Positions 14,890-38,854 of a stretch of DNA of 38,854 bases are shown in pieces; position 1 is the first letter of the stretch; the number at the start of each line of letters is the position of its first letter. Both the position numbers and the translations under genes were made by a program. Origin of the DNA: a virus; the IMG/VR virus record IMGVR_UViG_3300033388_001466, positions 1 through 38,854 of that record, one strand, 5' to 3'. The notes beneath the pieces were generated by a model, which saw only the letters and a list, made by a program, of their open reading frames with translations, was not told the DNA's origin and did not search any database.

Positions 14890-14890
14890 T

Positions 14891-15271: not shown

Positions 15272-15561
15272 TTGACTATTTCTCATGGGCGCTCGTCTGG
15301 GGTGCTAAGATAAAGCAGCTAAAAAGGATTGAGAAAAAAAGAGGCAAGAAGCCTAAAGCTCTTGAGAATGCTCCTGAAAGTGATTTGATTGTTGTTTGGT
15401 TTATTGAGGCTTATGCAACACTTTCAAAGTCTCGTGATTATGGCAATATAAAACTAACAGAAGTTTTAGCATACACAGAGCTGTTTAATTTAATCGTATC
15501 TAAGAAAGAGTTCACGCAAATCATGCAGGCTCTTGATGAAAAGTATTTAGAGGGGCGCTAA
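14891..15561 (+). CDS. Tail assembly chaperone, -1 frameshift fusion (gpGT-like)
   Basis: After the A-run at 15259-15268 the -1 frame is open to the TAA at 15559 and has no start codon near its beginning, so it must be reached by slippage on A-AAA-AAA. The fusion would be about 223 residues; the added roughly 97 residues start DYFSWALVWGAKIKQLK and are basic then helical. This is the same arrangement as lambda G/GT. The frameshift product ends one base before the tape measure ATG. Confidence 0.85.
15259..15268 (+). promoter_or_regulatory. Ribosomal -1 frameshift slippery site
   Basis: Ten consecutive A residues just before the zero-frame TAG give the heptamer A-AAA-AAA in register. No obvious long stem-loop follows within the next 15 bases, so slippage may rely on the A-run alone. 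Confidence 0.82.
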
Positions 15562-17499: not shown

Positions 17500-17500
17500 T

Positions 17501-18115: not shown

Positions 18116-18116
18116 T

Positions 18117-20582: not shown

Positions 20583-20583
20583 C

Positions 20584-21150: not shown

Positions 21151-21673
21151 CATAGCACCAGTTGTGAGATTGGTATACTTCGTTCATCTTGAGTTTAAAG
21201 ATGAAGATGTCAGGCTAAACACGAGCCCTATAAATGTTGATTGGGGTGGATTCACTTGGCTTGGTACTGGCATACTCGGTGAGATTACGCCACCTACTGA
21301 GAACATTGATATGAGCATTGACCGCTTGACTATGCGCTTTACTGGTGTGCCTGTATCTGAAATTGCATCAGCAAGAGCAAAGATTTATCGGAATAGAAAA
21401 GCCTATGTCTACGCTGGTGACTTCAATGAAGATTGGGCTATTGACACAGCACCAAAGCTTGCATTTTCTGGCGAAATGGATACAATGGTTACTGAGAGCA
21501 GTGGCGACAGTGCTTCCATTGTTGTTGAAGTAACTGGAGCTATGGCAGAATGGCAGAGAGCAAACACATATAGATACACTGATGAGATGCAGAGAGATCG
21601 CTTTACAGGTGATTTAGGCTTAGAATTTGTTAACCGTCAATTAGAAACACGCCTTTCATGGGGTATCAAATGA
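21143..21673 (+). CDS. Tail hub protein, DUF2163/BR0599-like
   Basis: From ATG 21143 the 176 residues include VVRLVYFVHLEFKDEDVRLNT at the start and, near the end, VEVTGAMAEWQRANTYRYTDEMQRDRFTGDLGLEFV, which resembles the DUF2163 and BR0599 pattern ...E-W-x-R...R-R-Y-T-D-x-x-Q...G-D-x-G-L-x-F-V. These proteins sit between distal tail and tail-tip hub and precede the NlpC/P60-like gene, as here. Codons upstream in the same frame lie within the previous gene and are ignored. Confidence 0.8.
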   Translation: MGNIAPVVRLVYFVHLEFKDEDVRLNTSPINVDWGGFTWLGTGILGEITPPTENIDMSIDRLTMRFTGVPVSEIASARAKIYRNRKAYVYAGDFNEDWAIDTAPKLAFSGEMDTMVTESSGDSASIVVEVTGAMAEWQRANTYRYTDEMQRDRFTGDLGLEFVNRQLETRLSWGIK

Positions 21674-22101
21674 TAAAGATGCTTCCTGATTACGGTATAC
21701 GCCTAAGAACATATTTGGCAGAGCACAGAACAGAGCCCTTTGAATGGGGAAAGAATGACTGCATGTTATTTGTTGCTGACTGCATTGAAAGAATGACAGG
21801 CGTTGATGTTGCTGAGTCACTAAGAGGTGCATACAGTGACGAACAAGGTGCTAGAGATGTAATTAAAAGCGAGTACTATGCAAACAGCTTTCTGGCAGTA
21901 GTAAGCACTATTTTTAGTTTATACAGCGGCATTGAAGAGGGCATTAGTGAAGATGTTCCTTGTGTGTGTGTTGTCAAGTATAGGAATAATTTTCTTGGTG
22001 GCCTCTATTATGAAGGCAAAGTGATGGTATTTCAGCAGGGCGGTTTTCTTGTGTTCAATAAAAAGAGAATAGTAAAATCATGGGTGGTACAAAATGGCTA
22101 G
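21670..22101 (+). CDS. NlpC/P60-related tail protein (DUF6950-like)
   Basis: From ATG 21670 (ATGA overlap with the hub gene) the 143 residues begin MIKMLPDYGIRLRTYLAEHR and carry FEWGKNDCMLFVADCIERMTG, the N-x-D-C motif of NlpC/P60 or DUF6950 proteins, with the Cys at about residue 31. The second half (VPCVCVVKYRNN...GKVMVFQQGGFLVF...IVKSWVV) fits DUF6950 but shows no His where NlpC peptidases have their catalytic base. It may be structural or only weakly active. Start 21658 is possible. Confidence 0.8.
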   Translation: MIKMLPDYGIRLRTYLAEHRTEPFEWGKNDCMLFVADCIERMTGVDVAESLRGAYSDEQGARDVIKSEYYANSFLAVVSTIFSLYSGIEEGISEDVPCVCVVKYRNNFLGGLYYEGKVMVFQQGGFLVFNKKRIVKSWVVQNG

Positions 22102-25100: not shown

Positions 25101-25246
25101 GTAATCCAATAGAGTTTGAGCAAGAATACACGGCTCTTATATCTGATAGCGGTCAAGAGGCTTTTAGATTTGGCGTAAAAAATAATCAAGGAATTGAGTC
25201 TGGCTTCTCAACAGATATTCTTTTAAGAGTCGGAACTGACGCATAG
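22094..25246 (+). CDS. Tail tip attachment protein, lambda J-like
   Basis: The 1050-residue protein opens with a hydrophobic, Ala/Val-rich stretch (LTAGIATATAIAGSVAAGAAASVIVASAVTTFVVSM is the region of residues 4-39) as in J-type proteins, followed by SPTASVKMLYGETVVSGVLVYSG, NNEFLHLVLTLAGHEVDEIG and further hub segments. The C-terminal third has fibronectin-III-like repeats (VRTVGYTITASILDQ..., SDAVVVTHTVNDGSGG). It forms the tail tip and normally contacts the receptor. It overlaps the NlpC-like gene by eight bases. Confidence 0.88.
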   Translation: MASVLTAGIATATAIAGSVAAGAAASVIVASAVTTFVVSMATAAISKSRYSDTETYNSEVSGSQTIIKSPTASVKMLYGETVVSGVLVYSGVSGTNNEFLHLVLTLAGHEVDEIGTVFFDSKAEFHEDISPYVSIARFNGGENQIANPLLLTDFGEWTESHRLRGLAYVHIRIERNDEVFTQVPNIKAIVRGRKVIDTRITDYDKQTALEVGATTELSFTELSYKSELLRDPYYGGDKTKNNGFQIAVTMKNTTLAGDKIIFAGDFDDIVASIPKSAGGCFWYDNAEKSINARFENEDGTPIVYQILEVELDLTKDFVSIVYYGGIGKITFLHNDRLEEFTIAQGLTFRYSTIIQKTDVDTQWVSFTSGVLLLKEDIDIIRFGDEIVDDALRNYGNGGIVSVTPGTATIIQNAVSVEDYHRAWSKNASLNIFDYMIDSRYGFSVAFEDMDLTAWELASDISSEVKLDEENPCPAQRYTVDGVVDTQQKVGNNLSQMLTGCAGVVIWHEGKFELKVAAGSEPVMTITSSMIHGSVVHRCVNSKASVFNTVKSVFVSGFNNWQSAETPLYRDEAAIEDDGEEILTELDLPFTDNLYIAQRLAITNLNVSRLEGGLSIFCSQEVKDLKAHDVVNVHNPESGIDNEKFRVAEKILHPTTGESAGGFELILNQHDNGAYDINEEDIIPREDIEEPIVPDEYAPVESFIAYSDSTTIDTTTGEARVFLAWDLSTNVRTVGYTITASILDQQSYSIEIAGRLVADVVDATPSVGQIVTYSIVANRDDGIKSDAVVVTHTVNDGSGGIATPTNFEIIEVLNNNGVAVWTENPSSEVTGSELRIGDNWRLSAFLGFSALSPLATTVSGFDYLSYLLADADENLIYSEPATAEATPNPDWFNPAYSTKFYRFSERGNYNVFEENAVTHYTGAIVPMSGKLASEQDYETFDIFSEDRGDYLLAFVEIETPSPDTILQVGGLAFSTLQQFGYPDRDTKPAKVQLVYWEKIEGAWGNPIEFEQEYTALISDSGQEAFRFGVKNNQGIESGFSTDILLRVGTDA

Positions 25247-25308
25247 CGCAATTTACATATAAACAGAACCAATGCAAATAATATATCTTTATGATATAGG
25301 GGGATAAA

Positions 25309-27438
25309 ATGACAATTAACTATACTTTGCCTGATTTCACTTCTCAAGATGCGGCAACATATAAAGCTGGCATTGATTCAAGTGTTGCCGTTAACAATGA
25401 GCTTGGCGGTCAATTCTACACGACACAATCAGCGACGCCTGCAATGTCTGTGTCTGTTTCGGACGGTGTTCTTTCGAGCGGTGCCATAGTTGCAGCACAA
25501 ACAGCGGTAATTACTCCAGCATCACTATCCAATGACAGAATTGATTTAGTTGTAATAGATACAGGCGGCCTTGCTTCTGTCATAGCTGGACTAGAAGGCG
25601 CACTTCCAGAACCACCCGTAACAGGTGCCGGACAATACCCGATAGCAACTGTTTATGTATCTGCTTTTACAACTGAGATATTTAATATTTTTATTACTGA
25701 CGCTCGTTCTGTAGTTGGCACAAGCGAAGGTGGAATTTCAGACGGGACAAAGAGAAAAATTGTCCACGGATTTGTTGACCCTGATAACGTAGCAATGACG
25801 CCTGACGATGGCACAAGAACACTTACATACTCACACTCAAGCGGTACTGTTCAGTTTTGGAGCGGAGCAAACTTTTACAGCTTTGCCAACGAAGACGCTA
25901 GGCTCTCTGTAACTGTGGCAGACCTAACGCGAGCTTCATGGACTTACTTTGACATAGACGGTCAATTAAAATACAAAACTTCGCTTGTCTGGATTGATGT
26001 AAAGACAACATGTCTTGGAAACCTTGCTAAATACGACGCTGATCTTAATATTTTCATTCTTGCTATTGCAAGGTGGGAAGATTGTCAAGCGAACCATGTA
26101 GAGAACTATGCTTCATACCGCTCAAAAGGGTTGCAAGGCGTCAGGGGGGAAGGGATTGATTTCACCGCAGCGATTGGCGACACTACAACAGGATACACGT
26201 CGGCTGCTTACCTTTCTGCTCGTGACTTTGAGTTTGCCATTCCTTCGACAAATGCAGACGCGGCAACGTGGCTTAGGTACCACTACAACGGCGTTGATGA
26301 TGCGGGGCAACTCAACATAAATCTTTCTGTATCACCAGCTCCAACGGGAACGCCAATAATAAAAGCTGAGGACGTTGGGCTTTCTGGCACGAACGCAATT
26401 TACAACTCAATAAACGGTGGCACTGGAAATTTTGAAGTTCTTATATGCCCTTCAAATGACTATGTAATAGGGCATATTGGCATAGGCGACGGCGGAAGCC
26501 AGAAGGTTATCGCACTAGCTCCACAGGGAAAGTACTCAACAGAAAACGAAGCACGAGAGGCAATTGAAACAGAAGAACAAACCTTAACAAATAATGATGA
26601 TGTATTTAGAGACGTTGCAGTTGTCGCATCCTTCATTGTAAAAGGTAATCTTTCAGGTGGGTTTTTAGATGCTACAGGAAATGGTGACACTTTCTATTTG
26701 CACTCAATCTCTCAACAGGGTGGCGGTGGAGGCGGGGCAAATAACCAAAGCTATGATGATGTTCTTGGCATTAACCCTGTTACAGATAAAAATGCCGTTC
26801 ATACTGATGGCGTTAACGTTTTAACTTTAGCTTCAGACGCAATTCTCTTAGACGACGGCACAGACACATCTCTACTAAAGGCTGATTTGCTGTCGTTTAA
26901 TGATGGCACAAACGGTAACCACGTCGAAGTCAACGCGGCAGGGATTACGAAAGATGGCGGAGCCTCATCTTTGGTGGTAGAGAATACGATCCTAGACGAG
27001 GATATTGACATATCAACTAACGGCGGCCTCACCAACATTGACAAGCCAACCACCACAGAAACACCCGCGCAGATTATCGCTCGTGGTGGTGAAGCTATTT
27101 CGAGTGTTGGTGCTCTCGGAGAAATCTCTGAACTCACAAACGCGGCGGGAACCAATGTGACGATTAATAATGACAAGTCATATTCCAACGCGTCAACAAT
27201 TACCCTTTCAATGGAGACCGTTGTATCGTCGGGGATTTCCCCTAATGTTGGAATAATAACGGTTGATGCGGATTATTGGCCGTATGACGAAGTGTCAAAT
27301 GTATCCTTTGTAAATTCTTCAGAGGTGACACATACCTGCCACCTTCACGCGGGCTCTGGTGAAGTGCGACCAACATTTAGCTCACTGTCAGCGGGAACAT
27401 ACAGGTTCCATATTACGTACGCTAGAAAAAAAGCATAA
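25309..27438 (+). CDS. Tail fibre protein (putative)
   Basis: The 709-residue protein follows the J-like gene with GGGGGATAAA as a strong ribosome site. The N-terminus (INYTLPDFTSQDAATYKAGIDSSVAVNN) resembles fibre attachment ends; the middle has strand-rich segments and a Gly-rich turn (QGGGGGGANNQS, about residues 471-482). The end is beta-rich (YWPYDEVSNVSFVNSSEVTHTCHLHAGSGEVRP...). The last roughly 400 bp have more G/C-rich codons than the 5' half, suggesting receptor-binding module exchange. Confidence 0.7.
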   Translation: MTINYTLPDFTSQDAATYKAGIDSSVAVNNELGGQFYTTQSATPAMSVSVSDGVLSSGAIVAAQTAVITPASLSNDRIDLVVIDTGGLASVIAGLEGALPEPPVTGAGQYPIATVYVSAFTTEIFNIFITDARSVVGTSEGGISDGTKRKIVHGFVDPDNVAMTPDDGTRTLTYSHSSGTVQFWSGANFYSFANEDARLSVTVADLTRASWTYFDIDGQLKYKTSLVWIDVKTTCLGNLAKYDADLNIFILAIARWEDCQANHVENYASYRSKGLQGVRGEGIDFTAAIGDTTTGYTSAAYLSARDFEFAIPSTNADAATWLRYHYNGVDDAGQLNINLSVSPAPTGTPIIKAEDVGLSGTNAIYNSINGGTGNFEVLICPSNDYVIGHIGIGDGGSQKVIALAPQGKYSTENEAREAIETEEQTLTNNDDVFRDVAVVASFIVKGNLSGGFLDATGNGDTFYLHSISQQGGGGGGANNQSYDDVLGINPVTDKNAVHTDGVNVLTLASDAILLDDGTDTSLLKADLLSFNDGTNGNHVEVNAAGITKDGGASSLVVENTILDEDIDISTNGGLTNIDKPTTTETPAQIIARGGEAISSVGALGEISELTNAAGTNVTINNDKSYSNASTITLSMETVVSSGISPNVGIITVDADYWPYDEVSNVSFVNSSEVTHTCHLHAGSGEVRPTFSSLSAGTYRFHITYARKKA

Positions 27439-27457
27439 CCAAAGATAGGAGCCTATC

Positions 27458-27793
27458 ATGGCTAGAGAAATAGACAGCAAGAACAGACAGTTTCACCCCG
27501 AGATCGTAACCCTCCGCACACCGACGGTGGTGACGGATGGCAAGGGCGTAACAAACATCGGGCTGATTGAAGTTGACAGTCACAAGATTGACCTCGACGA
27601 TTTGTCAGTAGGAGTGCACGAGAGATACATTCTCAAAATCGCGCTTGCGGTAGAGTTAGAGATTGTCACAGTTGAGCAAGCTGAAAACATGGAGTTGACC
27701 ATGCGAACACTCTTGCAGAATATTGACGTGATGAAAGCGCATGAAGCGGAAGTGTTAGCACTGGCACAAGAAGTACAGGCTGTGCCAGAATAG
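27458..27793 (+). CDS. Small hypothetical protein after the tail fibre
   Basis: The 111-residue, acidic protein starts MAREIDSKNRQFHPEIV and has a strand-rich first part (PTVVTDGKGVTNIGLIEVD) and a helical end (RTLLQNIDVMKAHEAEVLALAQEVQ). Codons are G/C-richer than most of the genome, matching the 3' end of the fibre gene. It may be a fibre chaperone or a co-transferred gene. No family is recognised. Ribosome site GATAGGAGCC. Confidence 0.65.
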   Translation: MAREIDSKNRQFHPEIVTLRTPTVVTDGKGVTNIGLIEVDSHKIDLDDLSVGVHERYILKIALAVELEIVTVEQAENMELTMRTLLQNIDVMKAHEAEVLALAQEVQAVPE

Positions 27794-27868
27794 AAAATGT
27801 GCGTGTAGGTTTTGTATGAAAAATCTGCACGTAGTTTCTACAGTACTTATATTGAAAGTAGGTTAATC

Positions 27869-28555
27869 ATGGGGTTACGAATGAAGCTACTTGGCAAGAT
27901 ACTCGCAGACAACTCAAATGTGAATAGCATATTACTATCTATTATCATACTGTTTATGGTATTCGCGTTCTCTATTGGAGGTCGCGTTTCTCATATTGGC
28001 CGTGATGGAATAGAGTTCTCAAGTGACATATCGAAGGACTACGAGCTTGAAGCTACGTATTGGGACGTATTCCACGATGCCGAAAGTGAGATTGCACGTT
28101 CTAATGTAGACATTATTAATCTCTATTGTCGTGCGTTCTCTGATTTCTTCGGAGACTCAGACAGGATCAACGCCTCTTATAGAATGCTTATTACTGGTAT
28201 ACTTGAGAAGGAAACCAAATCTTTTACTCTCAACTCAGTATTCAGAAACCATTTCCCTCCTATCAAGGATACTATCGCAACTAAGAAACATTGTGAATAT
28301 GTTTCTATGAGTGGATTATATCTAACGGTGTCAGAGATTGATGAAGATTGGAAAGTGTTATTCCCTCGGCTGTCTCGTGGAAAGTTTGCGAAATACCTGG
28401 AGGATTCAAAAGTAAACAGCGCTTGCATAGACAAGAAGATGCGCTCTCTTATGCGTATTGAGTTGATGAAACTTACTATCATCGGTGCAGTTCGTGGCAC
28501 TTATCCTGATATGTCAGAGCAGGAAATCAAACGCTTTTGGGCTACTAAACATTGA
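27869..28555 (+). CDS. N-terminally membrane-anchored protein in lysis region
   Basis: From ATG 27869 the 228-residue product has a short basic start, one hydrophobic span (SILLSIIILFMVFAFSIGG, about residues 19-37) and a large soluble, mostly helical domain with several basic patches. It precedes the endolysin gene, so an inner-membrane lysis protein (spanin-like or holin-like) is possible but not shown. A 16-codon frame (27816-27866) ends 2 bp before this ATG and might be a leader. Function unknown. Confidence 0.65.
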   Translation: MGLRMKLLGKILADNSNVNSILLSIIILFMVFAFSIGGRVSHIGRDGIEFSSDISKDYELEATYWDVFHDAESEIARSNVDIINLYCRAFSDFFGDSDRINASYRMLITGILEKETKSFTLNSVFRNHFPPIKDTIATKKHCEYVSMSGLYLTVSEIDEDWKVLFPRLSRGKFAKYLEDSKVNSACIDKKMRSLMRIELMKLTIIGAVRGTYPDMSEQEIKRFWATKH

Positions 28556-28557
28556 AC

Positions 28558-28591
28558 TACTAATTAAATACTAACTATTGTCAAATTAGTA
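28558..28591. promoter_or_regulatory. Inverted repeat ahead of the endolysin gene
   Basis: TACTAATT (28558-28565) is complementary to AATTAGTA (28584-28591) across 18 bp. The T/A-rich gap and lack of T-run argue against a terminator; an operator or RNA structure over the lysis gene start is possible. Confidence 0.35.
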
Positions 28592-28602
28592 ATTGAGGAA
28601 AT

Positions 28603-28947
28603 ATGAGACTATCAGAAAAGCAACAAGAGTTTTCAAGATGCCTTGGCCTTCTGCTATGCTATGCCACTAAACAAGGTTATGGTATAATTACAGGCGACTG
28701 TTTCCGCGACCCAAGACTACACGGCAAGACAGGTATCAAAAAAGGGTACGGCCACAAGAACAGCACCCACAAACTATGCCTTGCCTTTGACGCTAATCTA
28801 ATGATAGAGAGTGAGCACATTAAATCATCTCAACATGCAGCATGGGGTGATTTACATGAGTATTGGGAGTCACTATCAAGTATGGCAGCACCTATGATAA
28901 TCAGTGACGCAGGCCACTTTTCATTTGAACATAACGGAGTATGGTAA
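28603..28947 (+). CDS. Endolysin, M15-type L-Ala-D-Glu peptidase-like
   Basis: The 114-residue protein has the metallopeptidase M15 zinc pattern: STHKLCLAFDANL, with His56 and Asp63, and SDAGHFSFEHNGVW, with His105. It would cut the peptide part of the cell wall at the end of infection. The small size is usual for phage M15 endolysins of the Peptidase_M15_4 type. No signal peptide is present, so a holin is needed. GAGGAAAT is the ribosome site. It overlaps the lipase gene start. Confidence 0.85.
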   Translation: MRLSEKQQEFSRCLGLLLCYATKQGYGIITGDCFRDPRLHGKTGIKKGYGHKNSTHKLCLAFDANLMIESEHIKSSQHAAWGDLHEYWESLSSMAAPMIISDAGHFSFEHNGVW

Positions 28948-29591
28948 TGGATAAAGAATCTCTTCTCTACTATTGGGATAGTGTAGACGCTATTACTCAA
29001 GTAGTCAAAAAGAAAACCAAAACAAATAAATTCGGAGAAAATCACGCGATCTCTTTTGACCAGTTCAAAATAGGCTGTGATGAAGTAGCAGTATACAACT
29101 GCAAAGAAGAAACTATCGTAGCTATCAATGGAAGCGACGGAGACAAAGAAGAGTGGAAAGGTAATTTCAATGGATACCCTATTACAAACGGCTGCCATCA
29201 TAATTTTTATAAAGACGGTATTCGCATACTAGAATCAGTTATCAGAGATTGCCCGAAAGAGAAGCCTATCACAGTTGTAGGACACTCAAGAGGCGGCGCT
29301 TTAGCTCAGATATTCGCATTATACGCAGAGCTTGTACATGGACTAGAAATCCTTTGTGTGACGTATGGCTCTCCTAGAGTGTTTACATTGCTCAAAACGC
29401 GCTCTCTTGACTTCTATCATGTACGCGTGAATACGGATGGCGACCCTGTTTGCCATATACCTCCTGTTTGGCTCCCGCCTTTCTTTAAATCATATCAAAC
29501 GGATAATGTGAGAATACGCCCAAAGAAAATATTAGGGGTTAGAATGAAGCACGGGTGCTATGGTTTGATGATTGAGAAGTATTTAAAATAA
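28947..29591 (+). CDS. Lipase class 3-like alpha/beta hydrolase
   Basis: The 214-residue protein has the nucleophile elbow VVGHSRGGALAQ (Ser114), VTYGSPRVF after the next strand as in class-3 lipases, an acid at NTDGDPVCHIPP (Asp164 or Asp166) and a terminal His in MKHGCY (His202). ATG 28947 is preferred because ACGGAG is correctly spaced; an ATG six bases upstream lies within the endolysin stop. No signal peptide. It could aid lysis by attacking membrane lipids, or alter the host envelope; class-3 lipases are uncommon next to endolysins. Confidence 0.82.
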   Translation: MDKESLLYYWDSVDAITQVVKKKTKTNKFGENHAISFDQFKIGCDEVAVYNCKEETIVAINGSDGDKEEWKGNFNGYPITNGCHHNFYKDGIRILESVIRDCPKEKPITVVGHSRGGALAQIFALYAELVHGLEILCVTYGSPRVFTLLKTRSLDFYHVRVNTDGDPVCHIPPVWLPPFFKSYQTDNVRIRPKKILGVRMKHGCYGLMIEKYLK

Positions 29592-29593
29592 GG

Positions 29594-29622
29594 TTGACAA
29601 ATGAACACAACAAGAGTACAAT
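29594..29622 (+). promoter_or_regulatory. Consensus sigma70 promoter
   Basis: TTGACA (29594-29599) is spaced 17 bp from TACAAT (29617-29622). It is the best match to consensus seen in the window and lies after the lipase stop, so transcription of the 29661 gene and probably of the early region to its right begins here. Confidence 0.8.
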
Positions 29623-29660
29623 CATCAGAGAGTCGTGGAACTGAAGGAGGGAAAGGAGAT

Positions 29661-29765
29661 ATGACAGTAAAGTCATTCTCACTCAAACAGTTTCAGGAAA
29701 AGGCTAAGAGTATCAATTGGGGGCATTCTAAAGGCTGTAACTGTCTTAGATGTCGTAATCATTAA
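29661..29765 (+). CDS. 34-aa Cys-containing small protein
   Basis: MTVKSFSLKQFQEKAKSINW continues to a CNCLRC metal-binding-like end. A very strong ribosome site (GGAGGGAAAGGAGAT) precedes the ATG and the promoter above supplies a short leader. An in-frame ATG at 29601 would extend it by 20 residues but overlaps the promoter -10 region. Early expression at high level is suggested. A short host-takeover protein is possible; no family recognised. Confidence 0.6.
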   Translation: MTVKSFSLKQFQEKAKSINWGHSKGCNCLRCRNH

Positions 29766-29777
29766 CAAGGTGTAATT

Positions 29778-30044
29778 ATGCAAAAAGTAACTCACAAGTA
29801 CTGTAGTTTATGCAACACAGGAACGAAGCACACACAAAGTGCGCCAAATCACATTTTACATTTCATCATCACAATTTGCACTGGTGGCGGATGGCTTGTT
29901 TTTTGGTTACTGTTCTCAGTGTTCAAGGGCGCTGAAACGTGTGATGTATGCGGTCAAGCAGAGAAGAAGCCGTTTGTTTCAGTGGTAGGGCTAATCTTTA
30001 TTTTGCTGATAACTGCGTTTTTATTAACGGTTATTGTATTATAG
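29778..30044 (+). CDS. Zinc-ribbon membrane protein (LITAF-like layout)
   Basis: The 88-residue product has CSLCN near the N-terminus, a hydrophobic segment (HFIITICTGGGWLVFWLLFSV), then CDVCG and a second hydrophobic segment (VSVVGLIFILLITAFLLTVIVL). Two CxxC pairs around a hydrophobic hairpin resemble LITAF-type zinc proteins. It could be a membrane protein of early infection or a holin-like factor because of its place near the lysis genes. AAGGTG is the ribosome site. Confidence 0.7.
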   Translation: MQKVTHKYCSLCNTGTKHTQSAPNHILHFIITICTGGGWLVFWLLFSVFKGAETCDVCGQAEKKPFVSVVGLIFILLITAFLLTVIVL

Positions 30045-30053
30045 TATTATATT
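30042..30053 (+). promoter_or_regulatory. Variant of the recurring promoter ahead of a small RNA
   Basis: TAGTATTATATTAAT matches the recurring TAGTAGTATATTAATTA motif with one changed base and the same TATATT (30048-30053). No good -35 is seen. The start expected about 7 bp downstream coincides with the first hairpin of the RNA element. Confidence 0.5.
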
Positions 30054-30054
30054 A

Positions 30055-30181
30055 ATGTCGTAGGGTTGGTAGCCTACGCTTTGACAACGAGGCACACAAG
30101 AACGCTCATTAGAGCAGATAAACGCGATTGTCTCGGTCGCTAGGGCATACCACCCAATATCTGTTTTAATGGGCGTTTTTT
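30055..30181 (+). ncRNA. Candidate structured small RNA
   Basis: No gene fits here. CGTAGG/CCTACG (30059-30064 with 30073-30078) forms a first hairpin. A second helix of 18 continuous pairs (three G-T) joins 30101-30118 to 30160-30177 and encloses about 41 nt that can fold further (GCGA/TCGC and GGG/CCC). Six T residues end it, as in an intrinsic terminator. It is not a tRNA, lacking a T-loop. It could be a regulatory RNA or an attenuator for the replication genes that follow. Confidence 0.6.
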
Positions 30182-30197
30182 GGTTTAAGGAGAAGTT

Positions 30198-30392
30198 ATG
30201 ATAGTTAAAGTTGACGTTCTCAAGAAAAAGCTTGAAGAGATTAAAGCTATGGAGTTTCCAGAAGGAGACCTTAGCCGAGAGTCGCGTGACCCTGATTGTG
30301 AAGGTTGTGGCGTTTGGCTTAATGGGTGGATGCAAGGCCTTGAAGATGCTGTTGAGTTTATTGAGAGACTAATATTAGAAGAGGCTGTATAA
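30198..30392 (+). CDS. Small hypothetical protein before the replication gene
   Basis: The 64-residue protein has a Cys pair (CEGC, about residues 34-37) between a basic helix and an acidic helix (LEDAVEFIERLILEEAV). It shares a TAATG overlap with the next gene. AAGGAGAAG precedes its ATG. The family is not recognised; it could be an accessory of replication by location. Confidence 0.65.
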   Translation: MIVKVDVLKKKLEEIKAMEFPEGDLSRESRDPDCEGCGVWLNGWMQGLEDAVEFIERLILEEAV

Positions 30393-31096
30393 TGGCAAAT
30401 AGATTCACAGATACCGACCTATGGAAAAAGAAATGGTTCCGAACTTCAAGCCCACATATTAAATGCTTGTTTCGGTTCCTTGTGGACAATTGTAATCATG
30501 CAGGTATACTTGATGTCGATTTAGGATTAATGACTTATATGATAGGTGAAACGATTACTGAGGATGATCTAAATTCTCTTGGTAAATTGTTCACATGGAT
30601 AGGTGAAGATAAGATTTTCATACCTTCTTTTGTTGAATATCAGTATAAGGTTTCTTCGTATTCTGAGCTTAATGAATCCAATAATGCACACAAAAGTGTT
30701 ATTAATCAGCTTAAGAAGTATAATTTATTAGGGGCTAATGAGGGGCTAATTAGTACCTCACGAGGTGCACAGGATAAGGATAAAGAACTGGATAAGGATA
30801 AGGAGTTGGATAAGGCTAAGGCTAAGGTAAAAGCAAAAGACCCTAAGCACAAACACGGTGAATATAAACATGTCCTTCTCACTGATGCTCAACTTGAAAA
30901 ATTGAAGGTTGATTATTCTAGTAACTGGAAGTCAATGATAAAAGGACTTGATGAGTATCTTGAGAATCATAAAAAGAAACACTATGACAATCATAACCTA
31001 ACAATGCGTGGATGGGCTAAAAATACTCCTGCATCAAAAGAAATAGAAACGCAGTTCACTAGAAAAATTGATATTAACTCATTGATTATTCAGTAG
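30392..31096 (+). CDS. Replication initiation protein (lambda O-like role)
   Basis: The 234-residue protein begins RFTDTDLWKKKWFRTSSPHIKCLFRFLVDNCNHAGI, the opening of a common phage replication protein group with a winged-helix-like N-domain. A Lys/Asp-rich repeat follows (residues 128-149) and a helical C-terminal part (TDAQLEKLKVDYSSNWKSMIKGLDEYLEN). It precedes a DnaC-like loader, the same order as O and P-type functions. The repeat is encoded by tandem 18-bp units that may act as the origin. The start overlaps the previous stop. Confidence 0.8.
   Translation: MANRFTDTDLWKKKWFRTSSPHIKCLFRFLVDNCNHAGILDVDLGLMTYMIGETITEDDLNSLGKLFTWIGEDKIFIPSFVEYQYKVSSYSELNESNNAHKSVINQLKKYNLLGANEGLISTSRGAQDKDKELDKDKELDKAKAKVKAKDPKHKHGEYKHVLLTDAQLEKLKVDYSSNWKSMIKGLDEYLENHKKKHYDNHNLTMRGWAKNTPASKEIETQFTRKIDINSLIIQ
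30773..30826 (+). other. Candidate replication origin: three tandem 18-bp repeats
   Basis: GATAAGGATAAAGAACTG, GATAAGGATAAGGAGTTG and GATAAGGCTAAGGCTAAG are adjacent (30773-30790, 30791-30808, 30809-30826), inside the initiator gene as in lambdoid phages. AT-rich DNA flanks them on the left. They also simply encode a charged linker, so the origin role is an inference. Confidence 0.4.
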
Positions 31097-31104
31097 GGGG
31101 AATC

Positions 31105-31689
31105 ATGGAAGAGTGGTATGCTAGATATCAGAAGGCTGGAGTTCCAAAGAGACACATGGAATTTAGGCCAAACGATAATCAATGCGAAGAGTGGAGAGGT
31201 AGTTATCAGAAAGTAAAAGCTAGTCTTGTTGGCGGTGGGCTGTGTGTGCTTCTTGGCGACAGAGGAACAGGTAAGACTCAGAGCGCGGTTTGTGCTATTG
31301 GTTATTGTTGTAGGAAGATTGGGTATAACGCAATGTATGCGAAAGCGTTTGATGTGTTCTTGAGTATCAGAAGCGGCAGTAGTAAGAGTAACGACACTAC
31401 AGAGCAAGGAGCGGTGAAGGAGTACCTAAAACCGCATCTTCTTGTGATTGATGCCTATGAGGTTCGTGGTAATACTGAGTTTGAAAATAGAACTCTGAAC
31501 CATATCATTGATAAGCGTTACGACTCAATGAAGCCTACGATCTTAATAAGTAATGAGAAACCAGAAAACTTTATTGCTTCAGTGGGTGAAAGTTTTGTCG
31601 ATAGAATGGCAGACAGTGGCGGGATCATAATTTTCAAAGGTGACAGTAAACGAGGGGCTAAGTTGGTAGATGAGAACTTGCCATTTTAA
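31105..31689 (+). CDS. DnaC-like helicase loader ATPase
   Basis: The 194-residue AAA+ protein has Walker A GDRGTGKT (residues 51-58), Walker B LLVIDAYE (112-119; the usual second acidic residue is Ala) and a sensor-1-like ISNEKP. This is the pattern of DnaC/IstB-type loaders that bring the replicative helicase to the origin. No helicase gene is in the window, so a host helicase would be used. GGGGGAATC is the ribosome site, 8 bp after the initiator. Confidence 0.85.
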   Translation: MEEWYARYQKAGVPKRHMEFRPNDNQCEEWRGSYQKVKASLVGGGLCVLLGDRGTGKTQSAVCAIGYCCRKIGYNAMYAKAFDVFLSIRSGSSKSNDTTEQGAVKEYLKPHLLVIDAYEVRGNTEFENRTLNHIIDKRYDSMKPTILISNEKPENFIASVGESFVDRMADSGGIIIFKGDSKRGAKLVDENLPF

Positions 31690-31704
31690 GAAAGGTGTAG
31701 TGAG

Positions 31705-32127
31705 ATGAAAGAAGAAATATTTGAGAACGGGTTTTTGAGTGATGAGTTTATTAATCCTAATTATAGAGGGCTGAGCGATTCTGGCGGGTGGCCTTGTAGC
31801 GTTAAAGTTTTAGATGGAAGGCTGGAAAATCATCTTGTAGCTGTTCACGCAGGAGTGTTTATAACCACAACCAGAAGTGAGGGCTGGCCTCCTAGGATCA
31901 GCCACTTCACTCCTAAAGATATCCCAGTCGGTGAGCTTTGTTGGTTTGCTCGTGGTGACGGTGAATGGGATTTGATGCCGTTCGGGAAAGTTGTCGGAAA
32001 AGAAAGCTGGATTATGGTCTTTTTTTACCCTGTAAACTACTCAGCAATGTCTTTTCGTCATTGTGTTCCTTTCCTCATTGCTGAGACAGCCGAAAAAGCT
32101 GAAGAGTTGAAAGGTTGGTGGAAGTAA
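31705..32127 (+). CDS. Hypothetical protein (140 aa)
   Basis: A soluble protein with several Trp and Gly residues (DSGGWPCSVKVLDGRLENHLVAVHAG, GELCWFARGDGEWDLMPFGKVV) and a strand-rich middle. It ends with a helix (AETAEKAEELKGWWK). No family is recognised. It starts after AAAGGTGTAGTGAG and shares a TAATG overlap with the small membrane-peptide gene. Confidence 0.7.
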   Translation: MKEEIFENGFLSDEFINPNYRGLSDSGGWPCSVKVLDGRLENHLVAVHAGVFITTTRSEGWPPRISHFTPKDIPVGELCWFARGDGEWDLMPFGKVVGKESWIMVFFYPVNYSAMSFRHCVPFLIAETAEKAEELKGWWK

Positions 32128-32216
32128 TGTTAATAAACATACTTGGATGGGTAGTAAACAAAGTTCTGCTAGTCGTAGCTTTCGTGCTAGTAGTTATTCG
32201 CAAGGAGATAAAGTAA
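32127..32216 (+). CDS. 29-aa membrane micro-protein
   Basis: MLINILGWVVNKVLLVVAFV plus a basic end (IRKEIK) makes a single membrane helix with a positive-inside tail. Both ends overlap neighbours by the same TAATG junction, and GGTGG and GGAG sites are correctly placed for this gene and the next, which is good evidence for real translation. The function is unknown. Confidence 0.6.
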   Translation: MLINILGWVVNKVLLVVAFVLVVIRKEIK

Positions 32217-32833
32217 TGGTAGAATACAAAGATTGGAAGATAGAGAAGGATTACAAGGTGTCAGATATTCCGCAAAAGCGCAAAGAGGTTGAGCCGTACT
32301 GGTGGTACAATAGCGTAAGAGTTAATAGGAGCTATGCTCTAGGCGAGTTTAAGCTTACAGACAAGCAATTAGACTCTCTTACTAAAAAACACGGCAGAAG
32401 CGCCCTTAAACACATCGGAGGATTACCGACTAAAGTTAGAGCGCGGAAGGGAACTTTTACTCCTACCAAGTTTGTAGCTAAAGAGGTTACTCATAATAAA
32501 GTGAGATATAACAGTAAGAATGAGATGGCACTCGCTATTGAATTGAAAACAGGAGTGTCATATACTACGGTTCTTGCTCGGTATACTTCAGGTGATCGCG
32601 GCAGTTGTCTTGAGAGAGCTATAGGGCAACCGTCAAAGAAGGGTAAGAAGTACAAGAAGCAGCCAGCGAGGTTTGGGGTGGTTGCGACTAAGGGTAATGA
32701 GCGCGAAGAGTTTGATAGTGTGATTGATTGCGCGGAGTTCTTTGCTGCTACTAATCAGCAAATCTATGGAGCTATGAGAGCAGAGAAAGAGTTTAGAGGG
32801 TGGGAGTTAGTTAAGGTTCGGAGGGCGTTGTGA
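32216..32833 (+). CDS. Probable DNA-binding protein with NUMOD1-like C-terminus
   Basis: From ATG 32216 (GGAG site) the 205-residue protein is basic in its first two thirds. Its C-terminal part (GVVATKGNEREEFDSVIDCAEFFAATNQQIYGAMRAEKEFRGWEL is the region, residues about 155-198) resembles a NUMOD1/IENR1 DNA-binding repeat. No nuclease motif (GIY-YIG or HNH) is visible. It may be a remnant of a homing endonuclease or a regulatory DNA-binding protein. It overlaps the methyltransferase start (GTGA). Confidence 0.6.
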   Translation: MVEYKDWKIEKDYKVSDIPQKRKEVEPYWWYNSVRVNRSYALGEFKLTDKQLDSLTKKHGRSALKHIGGLPTKVRARKGTFTPTKFVAKEVTHNKVRYNSKNEMALAIELKTGVSYTTVLARYTSGDRGSCLERAIGQPSKKGKKYKKQPARFGVVATKGNEREEFDSVIDCAEFFAATNQQIYGAMRAEKEFRGWELVKVRRAL

Positions 32834-34804: not shown

Positions 34805-35441
34805 TGAAGAGATACTAAACGTATCAATGGTTGAGCAAGGCACTGATGAGTGGCACTATGAGAAGATGGGTATACAATCAGCTTCTAAGGGTGAGCTTTA
34901 CCTCGTGAACGGGAAAAGTGGTGATGGCATTGGCTCGGGTTTAATCTCCTACGCTGAAGAACTTGCACATAAGATGGCTGTAATTGACCCTGAGTTTGAT
35001 AGCTTTAGTAGCAAATCAGCTCAATGGGGTATTGATACAGAGCCTTACGCTAGAAAAGTATTCTCTCAAAAGAATATGTGTCAAGTTGAGGAGTATGGCT
35101 TTATATCATCAAAGGATTATCGGTACGGTTTCTCTCCTGATGGTGCTATTCAAGGAACTAAAATCGGCACTGAGATAAAGTGTTATGATACTAAAAATCA
35201 TATCCCTATAATTCTCAGCAAAGAAGTTCCGAAAAAGGTTATTGCTCAGTGTCAGTTTTCAATGATGGTGAGTGAGTTTGAAGCATGGTATGCTGTGTTT
35301 TATGACCCTAGACTAGTTAAGCACTTGCAGTATGCTCAGTTTTTGATTAAGCGTGATGAGAAGATGATTGATATGATGAGAGCTAAAGGGATTATTTGCA
35401 GTAACATGATAGATGATGAATTAGAATTAATGGGAATTTAG
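34797..35441 (+). CDS. YqaJ/lambda-exonuclease-like nuclease
   Basis: The 214-residue protein has the PD-(D/E)xK arrangement of the YqaJ family: an early Glu in QWGIDTEPYARKVF (Glu82), the catalytic FSPDGAI (Asp115) and GTEIKC (Glu126, Lys128), then QCQFSMMVS. It probably digests DNA ends 5' to 3' to make single strands for annealing with its neighbour. The first ten codons overlap the upstream gene. It lacks an obvious RecT partner. Confidence 0.87.
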   Translation: MFNEEILNVSMVEQGTDEWHYEKMGIQSASKGELYLVNGKSGDGIGSGLISYAEELAHKMAVIDPEFDSFSSKSAQWGIDTEPYARKVFSQKNMCQVEEYGFISSKDYRYGFSPDGAIQGTKIGTEIKCYDTKNHIPIILSKEVPKKVIAQCQFSMMVSEFEAWYAVFYDPRLVKHLQYAQFLIKRDEKMIDMMRAKGIICSNMIDDELELMGI

Positions 35442-35456
35442 AAAGAGAGTGTTAAA

Positions 35457-35867
35457 ATGGCAGGATCACTTAATAAGGTTTGCTTGATAGCAAATTTAGG
35501 CAAAGATATCGAACTACGTAGAACACCAGGCGGTGCAGCAGTGGCAGATTTCTCAGTAGCTACTACGAATCGCTACAAGGACAGCCAAGACGTTCAGCAA
35601 GAGGAAACAGAGTGGCACAATATTGTAGTCTGGAATAAGCAGGCCGAGAACTGTGCACAGTATCTCAAGAAGGGTAGTTCAGTGTATGTAGAAGGATCGC
35701 TGAAGACTCGTTCATGGGATGATGCGAACGGGCAGAAGCGGTACAAGACAGAGATCATAGCACAGTCTATTCAGTTTCTTGATAAGATTGGTGGCGACTC
35801 TGCACCTAGTAGTGATAACGGCGGTGGATTTGGTGAACCTCCTTCTGAGAGTGGCGGGTTTCAATAA
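35457..35867 (+). CDS. ssb: Single-stranded DNA-binding protein with a shortened C-tip
   Basis: The 136-residue protein has the OB-fold of SSB: NKVCLIANLGKDIELRRTPGG, VADFSVATTNRYKD, TEWHNIVVWNKQAENC and YVEGSLKTRSWDD. A Gly/Ser-rich tail follows but the end is SESGGFQ instead of the usual acidic ...DDIPF tip that binds partner proteins. The stop TAA is part of the first cassette-like element. GAGAGTG precedes the ATG. Confidence 0.9.
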   Translation: MAGSLNKVCLIANLGKDIELRRTPGGAAVADFSVATTNRYKDSQDVQQEETEWHNIVVWNKQAENCAQYLKKGSSVYVEGSLKTRSWDDANGQKRYKTEIIAQSIQFLDKIGGDSAPSSDNGGGFGEPPSESGGFQ

Positions 35868-35920
35868 CAGCCCCGTGGTGGGCTGAGGAACGAAGTCATC
35901 ACCAACGAATACGGTTATGA
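35864..35920. repeat. Cassette-like palindromic element E1
   Basis: Starts ATAACAG (SSB stop inside) and ends GTTATGA. Inner arms CGTGGTGGG and TCACCAAC pair as GT-GGTG with CACCAAC, leaving one extra A in the right arm. No T-run. AAACTT and an AGGAG ribosome site follow. Confidence 0.7.
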
Positions 35921-35942
35921 CTTTCAAACTTAGGAGATAGAA

Positions 35943-36287
35943 ATGCAAGATCATAGCGAATGTAAAAGGCAATTTATCCAGCTTTCAAAAGCTTGGTATG
36001 CAGATGCAAATTTAAGAAACTCTAAATTCGATGATAAAATTTCAATTGGGTTTTATCATCCAGAAGGAGGAACAACGGGGGAATTTGAAATTGAATTTTC
36101 TGAACTTTGCGGTAGGATTGTTCCAAAGTTGACAGCTTATGACGACGGTTGGAGTGCATTGTTTAACTTTAGCGATTTGATAGAAAAAATGGCAGAAATT
36201 GATGATAAATGTGTTTCAGCAGATGAATTTTGTGAATTGCTTGTTTTGCTTGGAATCGAAAACAAAACTCCAACAGAGCAAGAGTAA
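35943..36287 (+). CDS. Array gene 1, hypothetical
   Basis: The 114-residue acidic protein begins MQDHSECKRQFIQLSKAWYA and has a strand-rich middle (ISIGFYHPEGGTTGEFEIEF) and a helical end. No family recognised. AGGAG precedes the ATG, after element E1; its stop is 6 bases before E2. It is one of the small single-gene units between palindromes. Confidence 0.75.
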   Translation: MQDHSECKRQFIQLSKAWYADANLRNSKFDDKISIGFYHPEGGTTGEFEIEFSELCGRIVPKLTAYDDGWSALFNFSDLIEKMAEIDDKCVSADEFCELLVLLGIENKTPTEQE

Positions 36288-36293
36288 TCACTT

Positions 36294-36350
36294 ATAATGC
36301 CCAGATGGTGGGCAAACGAAGTGCAGCCACACCAATATGAAAGGTTATGA
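36294..36350. repeat. Cassette-like palindromic element E2
   Basis: The first box is ATAATG (diverged) and the last GTTATGA. Inner arms ATGGTGGG and CACACCAAT pair as AT-GGTG with CACCAAT, so even the changed outer base of the arm is compensated, and the extra right-arm A is kept. This compensatory pair argues that the structure is selected. Confidence 0.65.
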
Positions 36351-36353
36351 CTT

Positions 36354-36641
36354 ATGAAAGTAATAGAAAATAAGGTTGTTGTTTTTGGATATGATAAACC
36401 TAGTCAAAAAGTTGAAATGGCTTATGTTAATGAGAGGTGGTTGGATTGGAAAATGAAACTCAATAAATTTCAACTAATTAAAGCAATATTGCTTGAAAAG
36501 GGCTTTATTTGGAAGCTTGGAGAAACTGTTAAGTATGCTTTGCTTCATAGCGACTCTTACAGAGGTGATAATTCATCAGAAGTTGTTATATTTGAAAACA
36601 GTGATTCGTTTGAAAAGCTATGGTATAAAAAAGACATATAA
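36354..36641 (+). CDS. Array gene 2, hypothetical
   Basis: The 95-residue basic protein begins MKVIENKVVVFGYDKPSQKV and ends LWYKKDI. Strand-helix content is mixed; no domain is recognised. The ATG is only 3 bp after E2, with no ribosome site other than AAAGGTTATG within the element's end. The TAA stop is inside E3's ATAAC box. Confidence 0.7.
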   Translation: MKVIENKVVVFGYDKPSQKVEMAYVNERWLDWKMKLNKFQLIKAILLEKGFIWKLGETVKYALLHSDSYRGDNSSEVVIFENSDSFEKLWYKKDI

Positions 36642-36697
36642 CAACCGAGTGGTAGGCAAGGCATAAGCCGCAGTCCTACCAACGCGCTCGGTTATGA
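36638..36697. repeat. Cassette-like palindromic element E3
   Basis: ATAACAACCGAG at the left pairs with CTCGGTTAT at the right; inner arms GTGGTAGG and CCTACCAAC pair with one extra A in the right arm. A small GGC/GCC hairpin lies in the middle. AACTTT and AGGAG follow. This is the most regular copy. Confidence 0.75.
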
Positions 36698-36719
36698 ACA
36701 ACTTTAAATAGGAGTACAA

Positions 36720-36989
36720 ATGTTAGACCAAATAGAAGAAGTAATAGAGCTTGGTGGTGCTGAGTACTATAAATTAAAAGACAGTGCTGTTCTTGTTGGA
36801 TGCTCAGATTTCAACCGTGGATTAGTGGCAGAGTTGAAAAAGTGTTACTCTGAAATTGCAGATAAAGAAAAGGTTGTAGCAGAGCTTGCGTGGCCAGAAA
36901 ACTGTGAACACGAATTTGTAGAGGTTAAAAATGAAAAAGTAAGCGGTGTTAAGATGTGTATTCACTGTTATAGAGTAGAAGCTATATAA
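36720..36989 (+). CDS. Array gene 3, zinc-ribbon-like C-terminus
   Basis: The 89-residue protein begins MLDQIEEVIELGGAEYYKLK. Near its end it has CEHEF...MCIHC, a Cys-x-His and CxxC arrangement that could bind zinc. The first 65 residues are helical and acidic. AGGAG is the ribosome site. The stop TAA is in E4's ATAAC. Confidence 0.7.
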   Translation: MLDQIEEVIELGGAEYYKLKDSAVLVGCSDFNRGLVAELKKCYSEIADKEKVVAELAWPENCEHEFVEVKNEKVSGVKMCIHCYRVEAI

Positions 36990-37046
36990 CAGCTACGTGG
37001 TTTGCCGTAGTGAAACGAAGGACATAACCAACGTGGACGGTTATGA
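36986..37046. repeat. Cassette-like palindromic element E4
   Basis: Starts ATAACAGCT, ends GTTATGA; inner arms GTGGTTTG and AACCAAC pair as GT-GGTT with AACCAAC, with the extra A on the right. AAACTTAAT follows, as in E5. Confidence 0.7.
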
Positions 37047-37071
37047 TAAACTTAATAGAAAAGAGAATGTT

Positions 37072-37302
37072 ATGTGTAAAGACAAAGATTTAGCTTATAC
37101 GTGTGAGTGTGGGTGTGTTGAGTGGACAATGAGAAAAGACAATCGCATAGAGTGTTCTGAGTGCCAATCAGTTCTTGAAAATGTAGCGTGGGTTGTTACT
37201 CCTGTAAAAATGACTGCTAAGTGGAAAGATGGAGATGGAATTGAAAAAACAAAGTCTGGTGAACTTGTAGCCGATGGAGTTGAGCGTGAAACAGAAATTT
37301 AA
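37072..37302 (+). CDS. Array gene 4a, Cys-rich zinc-ribbon-like protein
   Basis: From ATG 37072 the 76 residues begin MCKDKDLAYTCECGCVEWTM and contain CECGC and CSEC, a four-Cys ribbon pattern. An in-frame ATG at 36997 would translate element E4 and is rejected. GAAAAGAG is a weak ribosome site. It overlaps the next gene without a palindrome between them, so one array unit carries two genes. Confidence 0.7.
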   Translation: MCKDKDLAYTCECGCVEWTMRKDNRIECSECQSVLENVAWVVTPVKMTAKWKDGDGIEKTKSGELVADGVERETEI

Positions 37303-37519
37303 AGGCGGTGAGTATTCTTGCAGACATCGAGGACAAGAAACACATTTGATGAAGTGCGAGCCAACAGAAGAAACTTGTAACATTGATTGCGCGAAATACA
37401 AAAAAGGTAAAGAACGTAAAGATGGTTGTTACTGGTGTGATGGTGTAGGAATTGGTGGAGATACAGACCACGTTTGTCCGAAGTGTGGACAGTATTACGG
37501 AATGATACAATATCGCTAA
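37286..37519 (+). CDS. Array gene 4b, Cys-rich protein
   Basis: The protein (77 residues from GTG 37286, or 81 from ATG 37274) has many Cys residues: YSCRHRG, MKCEP, TCNIDC, CYWCDG and CPKCGQYYG. The last two pairs form a zinc-ribbon. GTG is preferred because GGAG lies seven bases upstream of it, inside the alternative start. Its stop is just before E5. It may need two zinc ions. Family unknown. Confidence 0.65.
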   Translation: MKQKFKGGEYSCRHRGQETHLMKCEPTEETCNIDCAKYKKGKERKDGCYWCDGVGIGGDTDHVCPKCGQYYGMIQYR

Positions 37520-37580
37520 ATAACACCGTGGTGGTAGGCGAGGCTCAAGCCGAAGTCCTTACCAACCACTACGGTTATGA
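37520..37580. repeat. Cassette-like palindromic element E5
   Basis: Starts ATAACACC and ends GTTATGA. CCGTGGTGG pairs almost throughout with CCACTACGG, and GTGGTAGG with CCTTACCAAC; a GGCT/AGCC-like hairpin is at the centre. AAACTTTAA and AAGGG follow. Confidence 0.75.
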
Positions 37581-37602
37581 TAAACTTTAAGAAGGGTAGA
37601 AT

Positions 37603-37917
37603 ATGAAAACAATAACAGAAGAGTTTCAGAAATCACAATTAGAAAGAATTAGAAAATTAGCAAACAGTTCTGATGTTGTAAACTCAAAAGACTTAGTTGA
37701 AATACTAGAATCAGATTTTGAGAAAGAAGTCGAGATATGGAGGACTATAGATTCAGCTCCAACAGGGAAAAGGATATTAGTTACTAGAGACTTTAACAAT
37801 GCACCGATAGGGCTTGCTAGTTGGGATGGTAAATATTGGAGTACAGGAATGGGTGGGATATATGTAAGACCTACACATTGGAGAGAACTGCCAAAAGGGA
37901 TAAATCAACACATATAA
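37603..37917 (+). CDS. Array gene 5, DUF551-like protein
   Basis: The C-terminal half fits DUF551: WRTIDSAPTGKRILVTRDFNN, then GLASWDGKYW and RPTHWRELP. The 104-residue protein has a helical acidic N-terminus (TEEFQKSQLERIRKLANS). DUF551 is frequent in phage genomes with no known activity. AAGGGTAG is the ribosome site. Its stop TAA is inside E6. Confidence 0.75.
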   Translation: MKTITEEFQKSQLERIRKLANSSDVVNSKDLVEILESDFEKEVEIWRTIDSAPTGKRILVTRDFNNAPIGLASWDGKYWSTGMGGIYVRPTHWRELPKGINQHI

Positions 37918-37966
37918 CAACTAGTGTCGTGTGCCATAGTCACATGAACACATATGTTATTATGTA
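37914..37966. repeat. Cassette-like palindromic element E6 (diverged end copy)
   Basis: Starts ATAACAACT, ends GTTATTATG. The inner GT-GGT/ACCAAC arms are lost; GTGT/ACAC pairing is left. As the last copy before the MazG gene it may be a decayed end of the array. Confidence 0.5.
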
Positions 37967-38017
37967 ATTCAAAATCGCGTTTGTCAAGTGGTAGTATAAA
38001 AATAAAAGGAGAAAATA

Positions 38018-38587
38018 ATGTACAACGAATTAAGAGATGAAGTCCATCTAAATGCAATCAAAAAAGGATTTCACGACGAGGTGAATATTCAGCGCGATTT
38101 AGCTTTAGTTAGTGGTGAACTCGGCGAGCTAATCGGTGCAGACAGTAAAGGGCTAATTGCTCGTATTGACTTATTTAGATTAGCAATGCGTGAAGGCAAC
38201 GAAGTAAAACGAGCACAGGCGTTCAAGACGTTCATTAAAGATTCAACAGGTGATGAGCTGGCTGATGTGTTCTTGCGCCTATTAGACTATGCAGGACACA
38301 AGGAGGCTGATCTTGATGGAGCTAGTGAAATCTATAATAAGAGTACTGATGAGTATACTAAAGACAAGTTTCTCCTTATTAATGAGATATTTGGCGTGGT
38401 GCATCGGATTGCAATGAGAGAAGCAGAGGATGACTTTAAACAGTTTGAGTGTGGCGTGTGGATAATTGGCGCTATTAAGTCAGTAGAAGCTCTTGCATTG
38501 TTGATGAGTGTAGATTTAGCTTTTCATGTAGAGCAGAAGATGTTGTATAATGCCGGTCGTGAATTTAAGCATGGTAAGAAATACTAG
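38018..38587 (+). CDS. MazG-like NTP pyrophosphohydrolase
   Basis: The 189-residue protein carries the helical MazG-type metal site: SGELGELIGA (Glu34, Glu37) and DELADVFLRLLDYAG (Glu80, Asp83), and ends KMLYNAGREFKHGKKY like other phage MazG-type proteins. It may hydrolyse (d)NTPs or alarmones. AAAGGAG is the ribosome site. A longer middle insert (about 95-155) separates the second motif from the tail. It runs into the ninG start by one base (TAGTG). Confidence 0.8.
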   Translation: MYNELRDEVHLNAIKKGFHDEVNIQRDLALVSGELGELIGADSKGLIARIDLFRLAMREGNEVKRAQAFKTFIKDSTGDELADVFLRLLDYAGHKEADLDGASEIYNKSTDEYTKDKFLLINEIFGVVHRIAMREAEDDFKQFECGVWIIGAIKSVEALALLMSVDLAFHVEQKMLYNAGREFKHGKKY

Positions 38588-38854
38588 TGAATCAGAAAGA
38601 GCGCATCAAACAACTTAAGATAAGGAATGAGATTGTGGCTATTAAGAGAGAGAAAACTCTATGGAAGTGGTTTAGCTTATATATCAGGCTCCGTGATTGT
38701 GTTGATGCGGGGTTTGCTCGGTGTATTACTTGTGGTGAGCCTCATTACTTTAGGGATATGGACGCGGGGCATTTTATCCCTCAGAAGAACAACTACAATA
38801 CAGTGTATGAGGAAACTAATGTACACGCCCAGTGTAAGCGAGAAAACCAGTACG
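38587..38854 (+). CDS. ninG: NinG-like recombination protein, N-terminal part (continues at window start)
   Basis: GTG 38587 overlaps the MazG stop (TAGTG), so translation is probably coupled. The frame reads VNQKERIKQLKIRNEIVAIK, then CITCGEPHYF before DAGHFIP, which gives the zinc-site Cys pair of NinG. The reading frame leaves the window open and matches the left-end part exactly within the 114-bp repeat. Confidence 0.85.
   Translation, partial: MNQKERIKQLKIRNEIVAIKREKTLWKWFSLYIRLRDCVDAGFARCITCGEPHYFRDMDAGHFIPQKNNYNTVYEETNVHAQCKRENQY
38741..38854. repeat. Terminal direct repeat, right copy
   Basis: Identical over 114 bases to the first 114 bases of the window; see the left copy. Confidence 0.95.

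Follow-up and report, generated by a model that had tools for sequence, protein, structure and literature searches.

What are the hairpins that separate small genes in this phage genome, and do the genes between them move from phage to phage? The window, by which we mean the whole stretch of 38,854 nucleotides analysed here, is siphovirus-like, with terminase, portal, capsid, tape measure and J-like fibre genes. Downstream of its ssb gene, six hairpin elements alternate with small genes of no recognisable family (35864-37962). An earlier note on this DNA had described six imperfect palindromes between small genes here and had read them as either an attC-type array in inverse orientation or a related but distinct cassette system. 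The palindromes are present, and the proposal has gained support from the side of the bulge relative to phage attC sites, from left-box junctions between related phages, from the linkage of elements to their right flanks and from published work in which the extrahelical bases of an attC site were inverted (PMC2727003). The note had also named a fixed gene order among related phages, with no exchange of units, as the outcome that would count against it; what the relatives show is unit exchange.

The array in the window

All features of the array lie on the plus strand; E values given here are for covariance model R2, introduced below. The ssb gene (35457-35867; PF00436, phrog_44) forms the upstream edge of the array, which a YqaJ-type exonuclease gene also adjoins, and its TAA stop falls inside the box of element E1. 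E1 (35864-35920, ATAAC to GTTAT at 35864-35918; E = 2.7e-11) lies directly 3′ of ssb, carries a bulged A on its right arm and is followed by the unit 1 gene (114 aa, 35943-36287), which the family search matched to none. E2 (36294-36350, box to box 36294-36348; E = 1.2e-8) precedes the unit 2 gene (95 aa, 36354-36641), and E3 (36638-36697, ATAAC to GTTAT at 36638-36695; E = 4.3e-9) the unit 3 gene (89 aa, 36720-36989), both of no recognisable family. E4 (36986-37046, ATAAC to GTTAT at 36986-37044; E = 5.6e-10) is followed by the two genes of unit 4, one of 76 aa with CxC..CxxC motifs (37072-37302) and a cysteine-rich one of 81 aa (37274-37519). E5 (37520-37580, ATAAC to GTTAT at 37520-37578; E = 7.8e-10) precedes the unit 5 gene (104 aa, 37603-37917), again of no recognisable family, whose TAA stop lies inside the box of the last and divergent element, E6 (37914-37962, ATAAC to GTTAT at 37914-37960; E = 1.5e-4). 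The first gene past the array encodes a MazG-like pyrophosphatase (38018-38587; phrog_9236, 6.6e-33).

Family searches gave no assignment to the cargo genes of the window, and an Rfam search of 35000-38854 returned no match. The tyrosine recombinase profile PF00589 is absent from the whole window, in agreement with the note's statement that no integrase gene is present. The window holds six clustered sites and no intI, the sites being candidate attC sites.

Much of what the note had read from the letters of these elements stands. All six are bounded by ATAAC (ATAAT in E2) and GTTAT, and E2 keeps its pairing through a compensatory change, ATGGT with ACCAAT. The upstream TAA stop, placed by the note inside the first box in most elements, lies there in E1, E3, E4 and E6, abuts the box at E5 and comes a few nucleotides before it at E2. 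The right box GTTATGA falls short of a full fit to GTTRRRY, as the note had remarked, and the left ATATAAC-type box does likewise with RYYYAAC. The elements measure 47-59 bp rather than the 53-61 bp described, and inner arms GTGGT and ACCAAC, attributed to five elements, are found in four, E6 having GTGT and ACAC.

A seventh element, unlisted in the note, stands alone in the structural-gene region (9538-9599, plus strand; E = 0.002) and has TTAAC and GTTAA boxes. It is preceded by a 48-aa cysteine-rich ORF, the TAA stop of which lies inside the box. The unpaired base, assigned by the note to the right arm, is on the 3′ arm in all seven window sites.

Covariation and bulge side across the element family

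Arrays of the same elements turned up in other phages when viral contigs were scanned for the pattern. Covariance model R1 was built from 30 elements and model R2 from 84 R1 matches. R2 gave 117 matches, about 115 distinct sites once duplicates were removed; together with whole-record searches, it placed sites in 17 viral records, the window being one of them, with arrays of up to 13 sites. In a 320-kb search the six sites of the window array have E values from 2.7e-11 to 1.5e-4, the first five being among the elements from which the model was made. Over about 0.98 Mb of viral loci picked solely for ssb, R1 gave only two sites at E≤1, both in array phages, and R2 made three matches in 0.3 Mb taken from elsewhere in the array records. 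The window elements are more than chance. A pattern match in L094 was dropped, as the covariance model finds nothing in that record, and so was one in L096, which is almost the same in sequence.

The ATAAC and GTTAT boxes are nearly invariant across sites, whereas the inner stem varies in sequence and keeps its pairing. In the R2 alignment, which is fitted to the model, 96.8% of cells are paired and double changes occupy 101 cells, against 18.7 in shuffles. A MAFFT alignment shows the same inner-stem covariation. The inner-stem column pair 18-52 of the first alignment holds GC in 14 cases, UA in 10 and AU in 4.

The layout of an element is ATAAC, a spacer of 6-7 nt, the 5′ arm of the stem, a loop, a 3′ arm with one to three unpaired bases, a further spacer of 6-7 nt and GTTATGA, followed by a leader with a ribosome site and then the gene. 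GTTATGA at the right box is a longer conserved run than ATAAC at the left. An ORF on the same strand precedes 108 of 117 sites and one follows 108 of 117; 52 of 117 have a TAA stop at position +1 of the box, and the AAACTT leader is present in 21 of 113 right flanks. The bulged base lies on the right (3′) arm at 69 sites, on the left (5′) arm at 7 and is undecided at 38; it is an A in 63. Run on the attC sites of TJE1 as a control, the same script placed the bulge on the left (5′) arm in three out of three. Conservation past the right box, considered as proof of inverse polarity, is weakened as an argument because canonical TJE1 cassettes share leader sequence too. One site (L137 11286-11342) is a nearly perfect palindrome that scores on both strands and would therefore have no polarity.

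Recombination in integrons uses one folded strand of attC; the extrahelical bases select that strand and, with it, the box that is cut. The elements share with integron attC sites (the VCR of Vibrio cholerae, attCaadA7) the box-spacer-stem-loop plan, outer R boxes with AAC and GTT triplets, an inner stem conserved in pairing and not in sequence, up to three extrahelical bases confined to one arm, a variable loop and an unpaired central spacer (spacer complementarity of 2.21 against a null of 2.21). The unpaired base here is mainly A, not G. Canonical sites carry their extrahelical bases on the left (L″) arm, whereas the elements have the reverse polarity to the gene, which follows the element and leader that it travels with. 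Nor do the boxes show the full RYYYAAC/GTTRRRY motif, from which TJE1 deviates too (GTTATGC), so that the motif is not a strict one; and no intI accompanies an array in the window or in the other array records, as it would in a complete integron. When the three extrahelical bases of VCR are inverted, exchange uses the top strand instead and falls at the R″ (left) box; replacing the first extrahelical G by A has little effect (Bouvier et al. 2009, PMC2727003). The elements resemble these mutants in having extrahelical bases on the opposite arm, and top-strand exchange at the R″ box is predicted for them also. The VCR mutants are laboratory constructs, whereas here the inverted layout is the natural state of a whole family and the exchange is one read from comparative data.

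Clusters of attC sites without an integrase (CALINs) have been published for the phages TJE1, P12002L and Pseudoalteromonas PH101, and five of the six phage attC sites in an IntI1 panel, which included two TJE1 sites, recombined (Qi et al. 2023, PMC9892861). Like the arrays described here, they set small genes between imperfect palindromes with ATAAC/GTTAT-type boxes (seen in TJE1), have no integrase and include DNA methyltransferase cargo (PMC9892861). Unlike them, the present arrays reach 13 sites and belong to one related family in 17 viral records, and the bulge is on the right arm, not on the left as in TJE1. R1 and R2 give no score to attC sites of other phages, and TJE1, P12002L and PH101 do not match the models. 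A search of phages for near DNA found none, and an element search of phages and plasmids returned marginal chance matches only. A strict pattern, run over 85k genomes of bacteria and archaea, produced a lone match, in Epsilonproteobacteria, which falls in a coding region with no such structure and was set down to chance; R2, run without a positive control, had no match in 298 genomes of the Epsilonproteobacteria phylum. Phage CALINs are already known, whereas inverse polarity and this site family appear to be new: we found no description of an inverse-polarity site family in the open-access literature. The Extended start-associated repeats of mycobacteriophages also place an inverted repeat before the ribosome site and start codon of small genes; they are not known to have fixed AAC/GTT box ends or one-edge exchange of units.

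Rearrangement junctions and linkage to the downstream gene

The junction evidence comes from one pair of phages, G010 and G014, both assembled from metagenomes (IMG/VR), whose backbone blocks are 93-99% identical. A segment of about 11-12 kb is inverted between them (7364-18281 in G014, 20090-32554 in G010), and each end of the inversion falls in the left box of an element, the two elements being opposed in orientation. At either end the genes agree as far as the last letter of ATAAC, after which the elements are not the same. Repeat-driven mis-assembly is an unlikely source of the inversion, given that its two junctions carry different elements. In three units, namely B, C and the last site together with the backbone, identity starts at the left box, and the sequence ahead of it is unrelated. 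Unit C, 505 bp long and 98.8% identical, starts at the left box and occupies different loci and strands in the two phages. In all, five rearrangement junctions, including both inversion ends, lie within the left ATAAC box, and the moved units consist of an element and its downstream gene. Homology ends at offsets of 0, -2, +4, +5, 0 and 0 from left-box edges, and 7 of 18 homology ends are no more than 6 bp from such an edge, compared with 1.9% of random positions. The sequence common at the junctions is ATAAC alone (about 5 bp), and the elements after it differ. A few junctions also end at GTTATG.

Flanks were compared for pairs of similar elements from different phages, over 40 nt on each side, excluding G010/G014 pairs and, in the final statistics, L164 (G019), a duplicate of G014. 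The right 40 nt exceed the expected similarity (0 of 1000 permutations as high, p<0.001), and the left 40 nt do not (157-675 of 1000). Element similarity tracks the right flank and not the left, and hence the element travels with the downstream gene. An AT-rich leader and element common to L136, L137 and L132 show homology that begins at the left box.

Some cases do not follow this pattern. G010 and G014 share a 60-bp element at 100% identity (L130 13260-13319, L131 9689-9748) that lies between unrelated flanks in the two phages, and some near-identical elements precede different genes; left-box exchange alone leaves both unexplained. A 109-aa gene is 87-89% identical in three phages, and its elements are little more alike than background. 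The identical element and the 109-aa gene need exchange at the right box, conversion between elements or repeated re-attachment to new genes. A cassette protein common to three phages has no relative in phage or plasmid collections.

The recombinase and competing explanations

The inverted extrahelical layout, together with comparative junctions at the matching left box, favours inverse polarity. Judged from these sequence comparisons, the elements are probably attC-type sites that recombine as folded single strands, are inverse in polarity to their genes and exchange at the left box through a tyrosine recombinase acting in trans. The coding strand would fold in the cell into the recombinogenic hairpin, and exchange would occur at about ATAA^C of the 5′ (left) box, the exact base being a prediction. 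The mobile unit would comprise the element, the leader with its ribosome site and the downstream gene, whose TAA stop would often close the unit within the following box. Units would be gained, lost and moved in this way, and segments between opposed arrays inverted. The enzyme acting in trans would most likely be a host integron-type integrase.

No integron integrase was found in any array record searched. Two phages have a tyrosine recombinase gene on the minus strand inside the cassette array, of 392 aa in G009 (L133 8414-9592) and 387 aa in G006 (L136 10117-11280). The two proteins are full-length relatives (39% identical) and resemble phage integrases, with an N-terminal arm domain. They were rejected as IntI, since their scores against NCBIfam TIGR02249 (36 bits, precisely 35.9, for G009 and 31 bits for G006) are far under the cut-off of 265. 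An AlphaFold model of the G009 protein was set aside (pLDDT 47). We regard these recombinases as a lead for the array enzyme. A host integrase acting in trans is preferred because most array phages are without a recombinase: the 392/387-aa protein is absent from 12 of 14 array records, many of them fragments. A gene common to all array phages was sought as a candidate recombinase and none was found, any one gene being shared by at most 5 of 15 records.

These two proteins could instead be the dedicated enzyme of a distinct phage cassette system, one with the same site logic, whose recombinase other phages use in trans. Both do lie within arrays, a scan of viral contigs with two short peptide patterns found no close relatives elsewhere and six distant matches with no sites nearby, and bacterial and archaeal genomes gave only the chance match described above. 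Given that they look like ordinary phage integrases, that most array records lack them, fragmentary as many of these are, and that the scan for relatives used such short patterns, we think a dedicated enzyme unlikely. The broader claim, that cassette exchange here is phage-specific and separate from bacterial integrons, with inverse-polarity folded sites and a tyrosine recombinase of its own, seems similarly doubtful to us; were it true, diverse environmental phages would trade small accessory genes and flip genome segments. The elements might also be RNA regulatory leaders, hairpin plus ribosome site, that ordinary mosaic exchange keeps together with the gene. The same-strand gene after 108 of 117 sites, the AAACTT of some right flanks and the association of elements with the right flank would all be expected of such leaders. 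That account is distinctly improbable, since several exchange points lie inside a 5-bp left box and not merely somewhere between genes, the inversion ends at two opposed elements, the outer boxes are fixed in sequence while the inner stem keeps its pairing only, and the bulges are arranged like the extrahelical bases of attC.

Homologous or microhomology recombination by phage machinery would act on the elements as dispersed repeats, and exonuclease (YqaJ-type) and ssb genes do adjoin the window array. The junctions, however, share only about 5 bp before differing elements begin, and exchanges are at the left box even though the longer conserved run is at the right one, which makes this route very unlikely. 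An ordinary CALIN, canonically oriented and cut at the GTT box on the right, would account for the gene order and TAA overlap, which look canonical, and for the few junctions ending at GTTATG, and has precedent in phages (PMC9892861). It is nevertheless extremely unlikely, as the bulges are on the arm opposite to that of known phage attC sites and both the junctions and the flank linkage indicate the left box.

If the elements are indeed inverse-polarity attC-type sites, integron-like gene trading would be a regular route by which phages swap small accessory genes rather than a rare accident, and the traded cargo would include DNA methyltransferases that may counter host restriction. A polarity made in laboratory mutants by inverting extrahelical bases would then have a natural counterpart, in which related genomes reveal the exchange point displaced as predicted, and the arrays would thus provide a natural test of the rules of strand selection. 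The arrays also raise the question of where the recombinase originates.

N6/N4 DNA methyltransferases recur as array cargo, and methyltransferase genes are present in several arrays (L134 1805-2569 and 3209-3952, L131 9771-10403, L136 9220-9954). A shared TAACGGCGGGGAGTGTAAAAA(G)CTCCC-like hairpin closes several units immediately before the next element (L136 9865-9955 and L132 7215-7306, in array-strand coordinates) and is perhaps a terminator carried on the cassettes.
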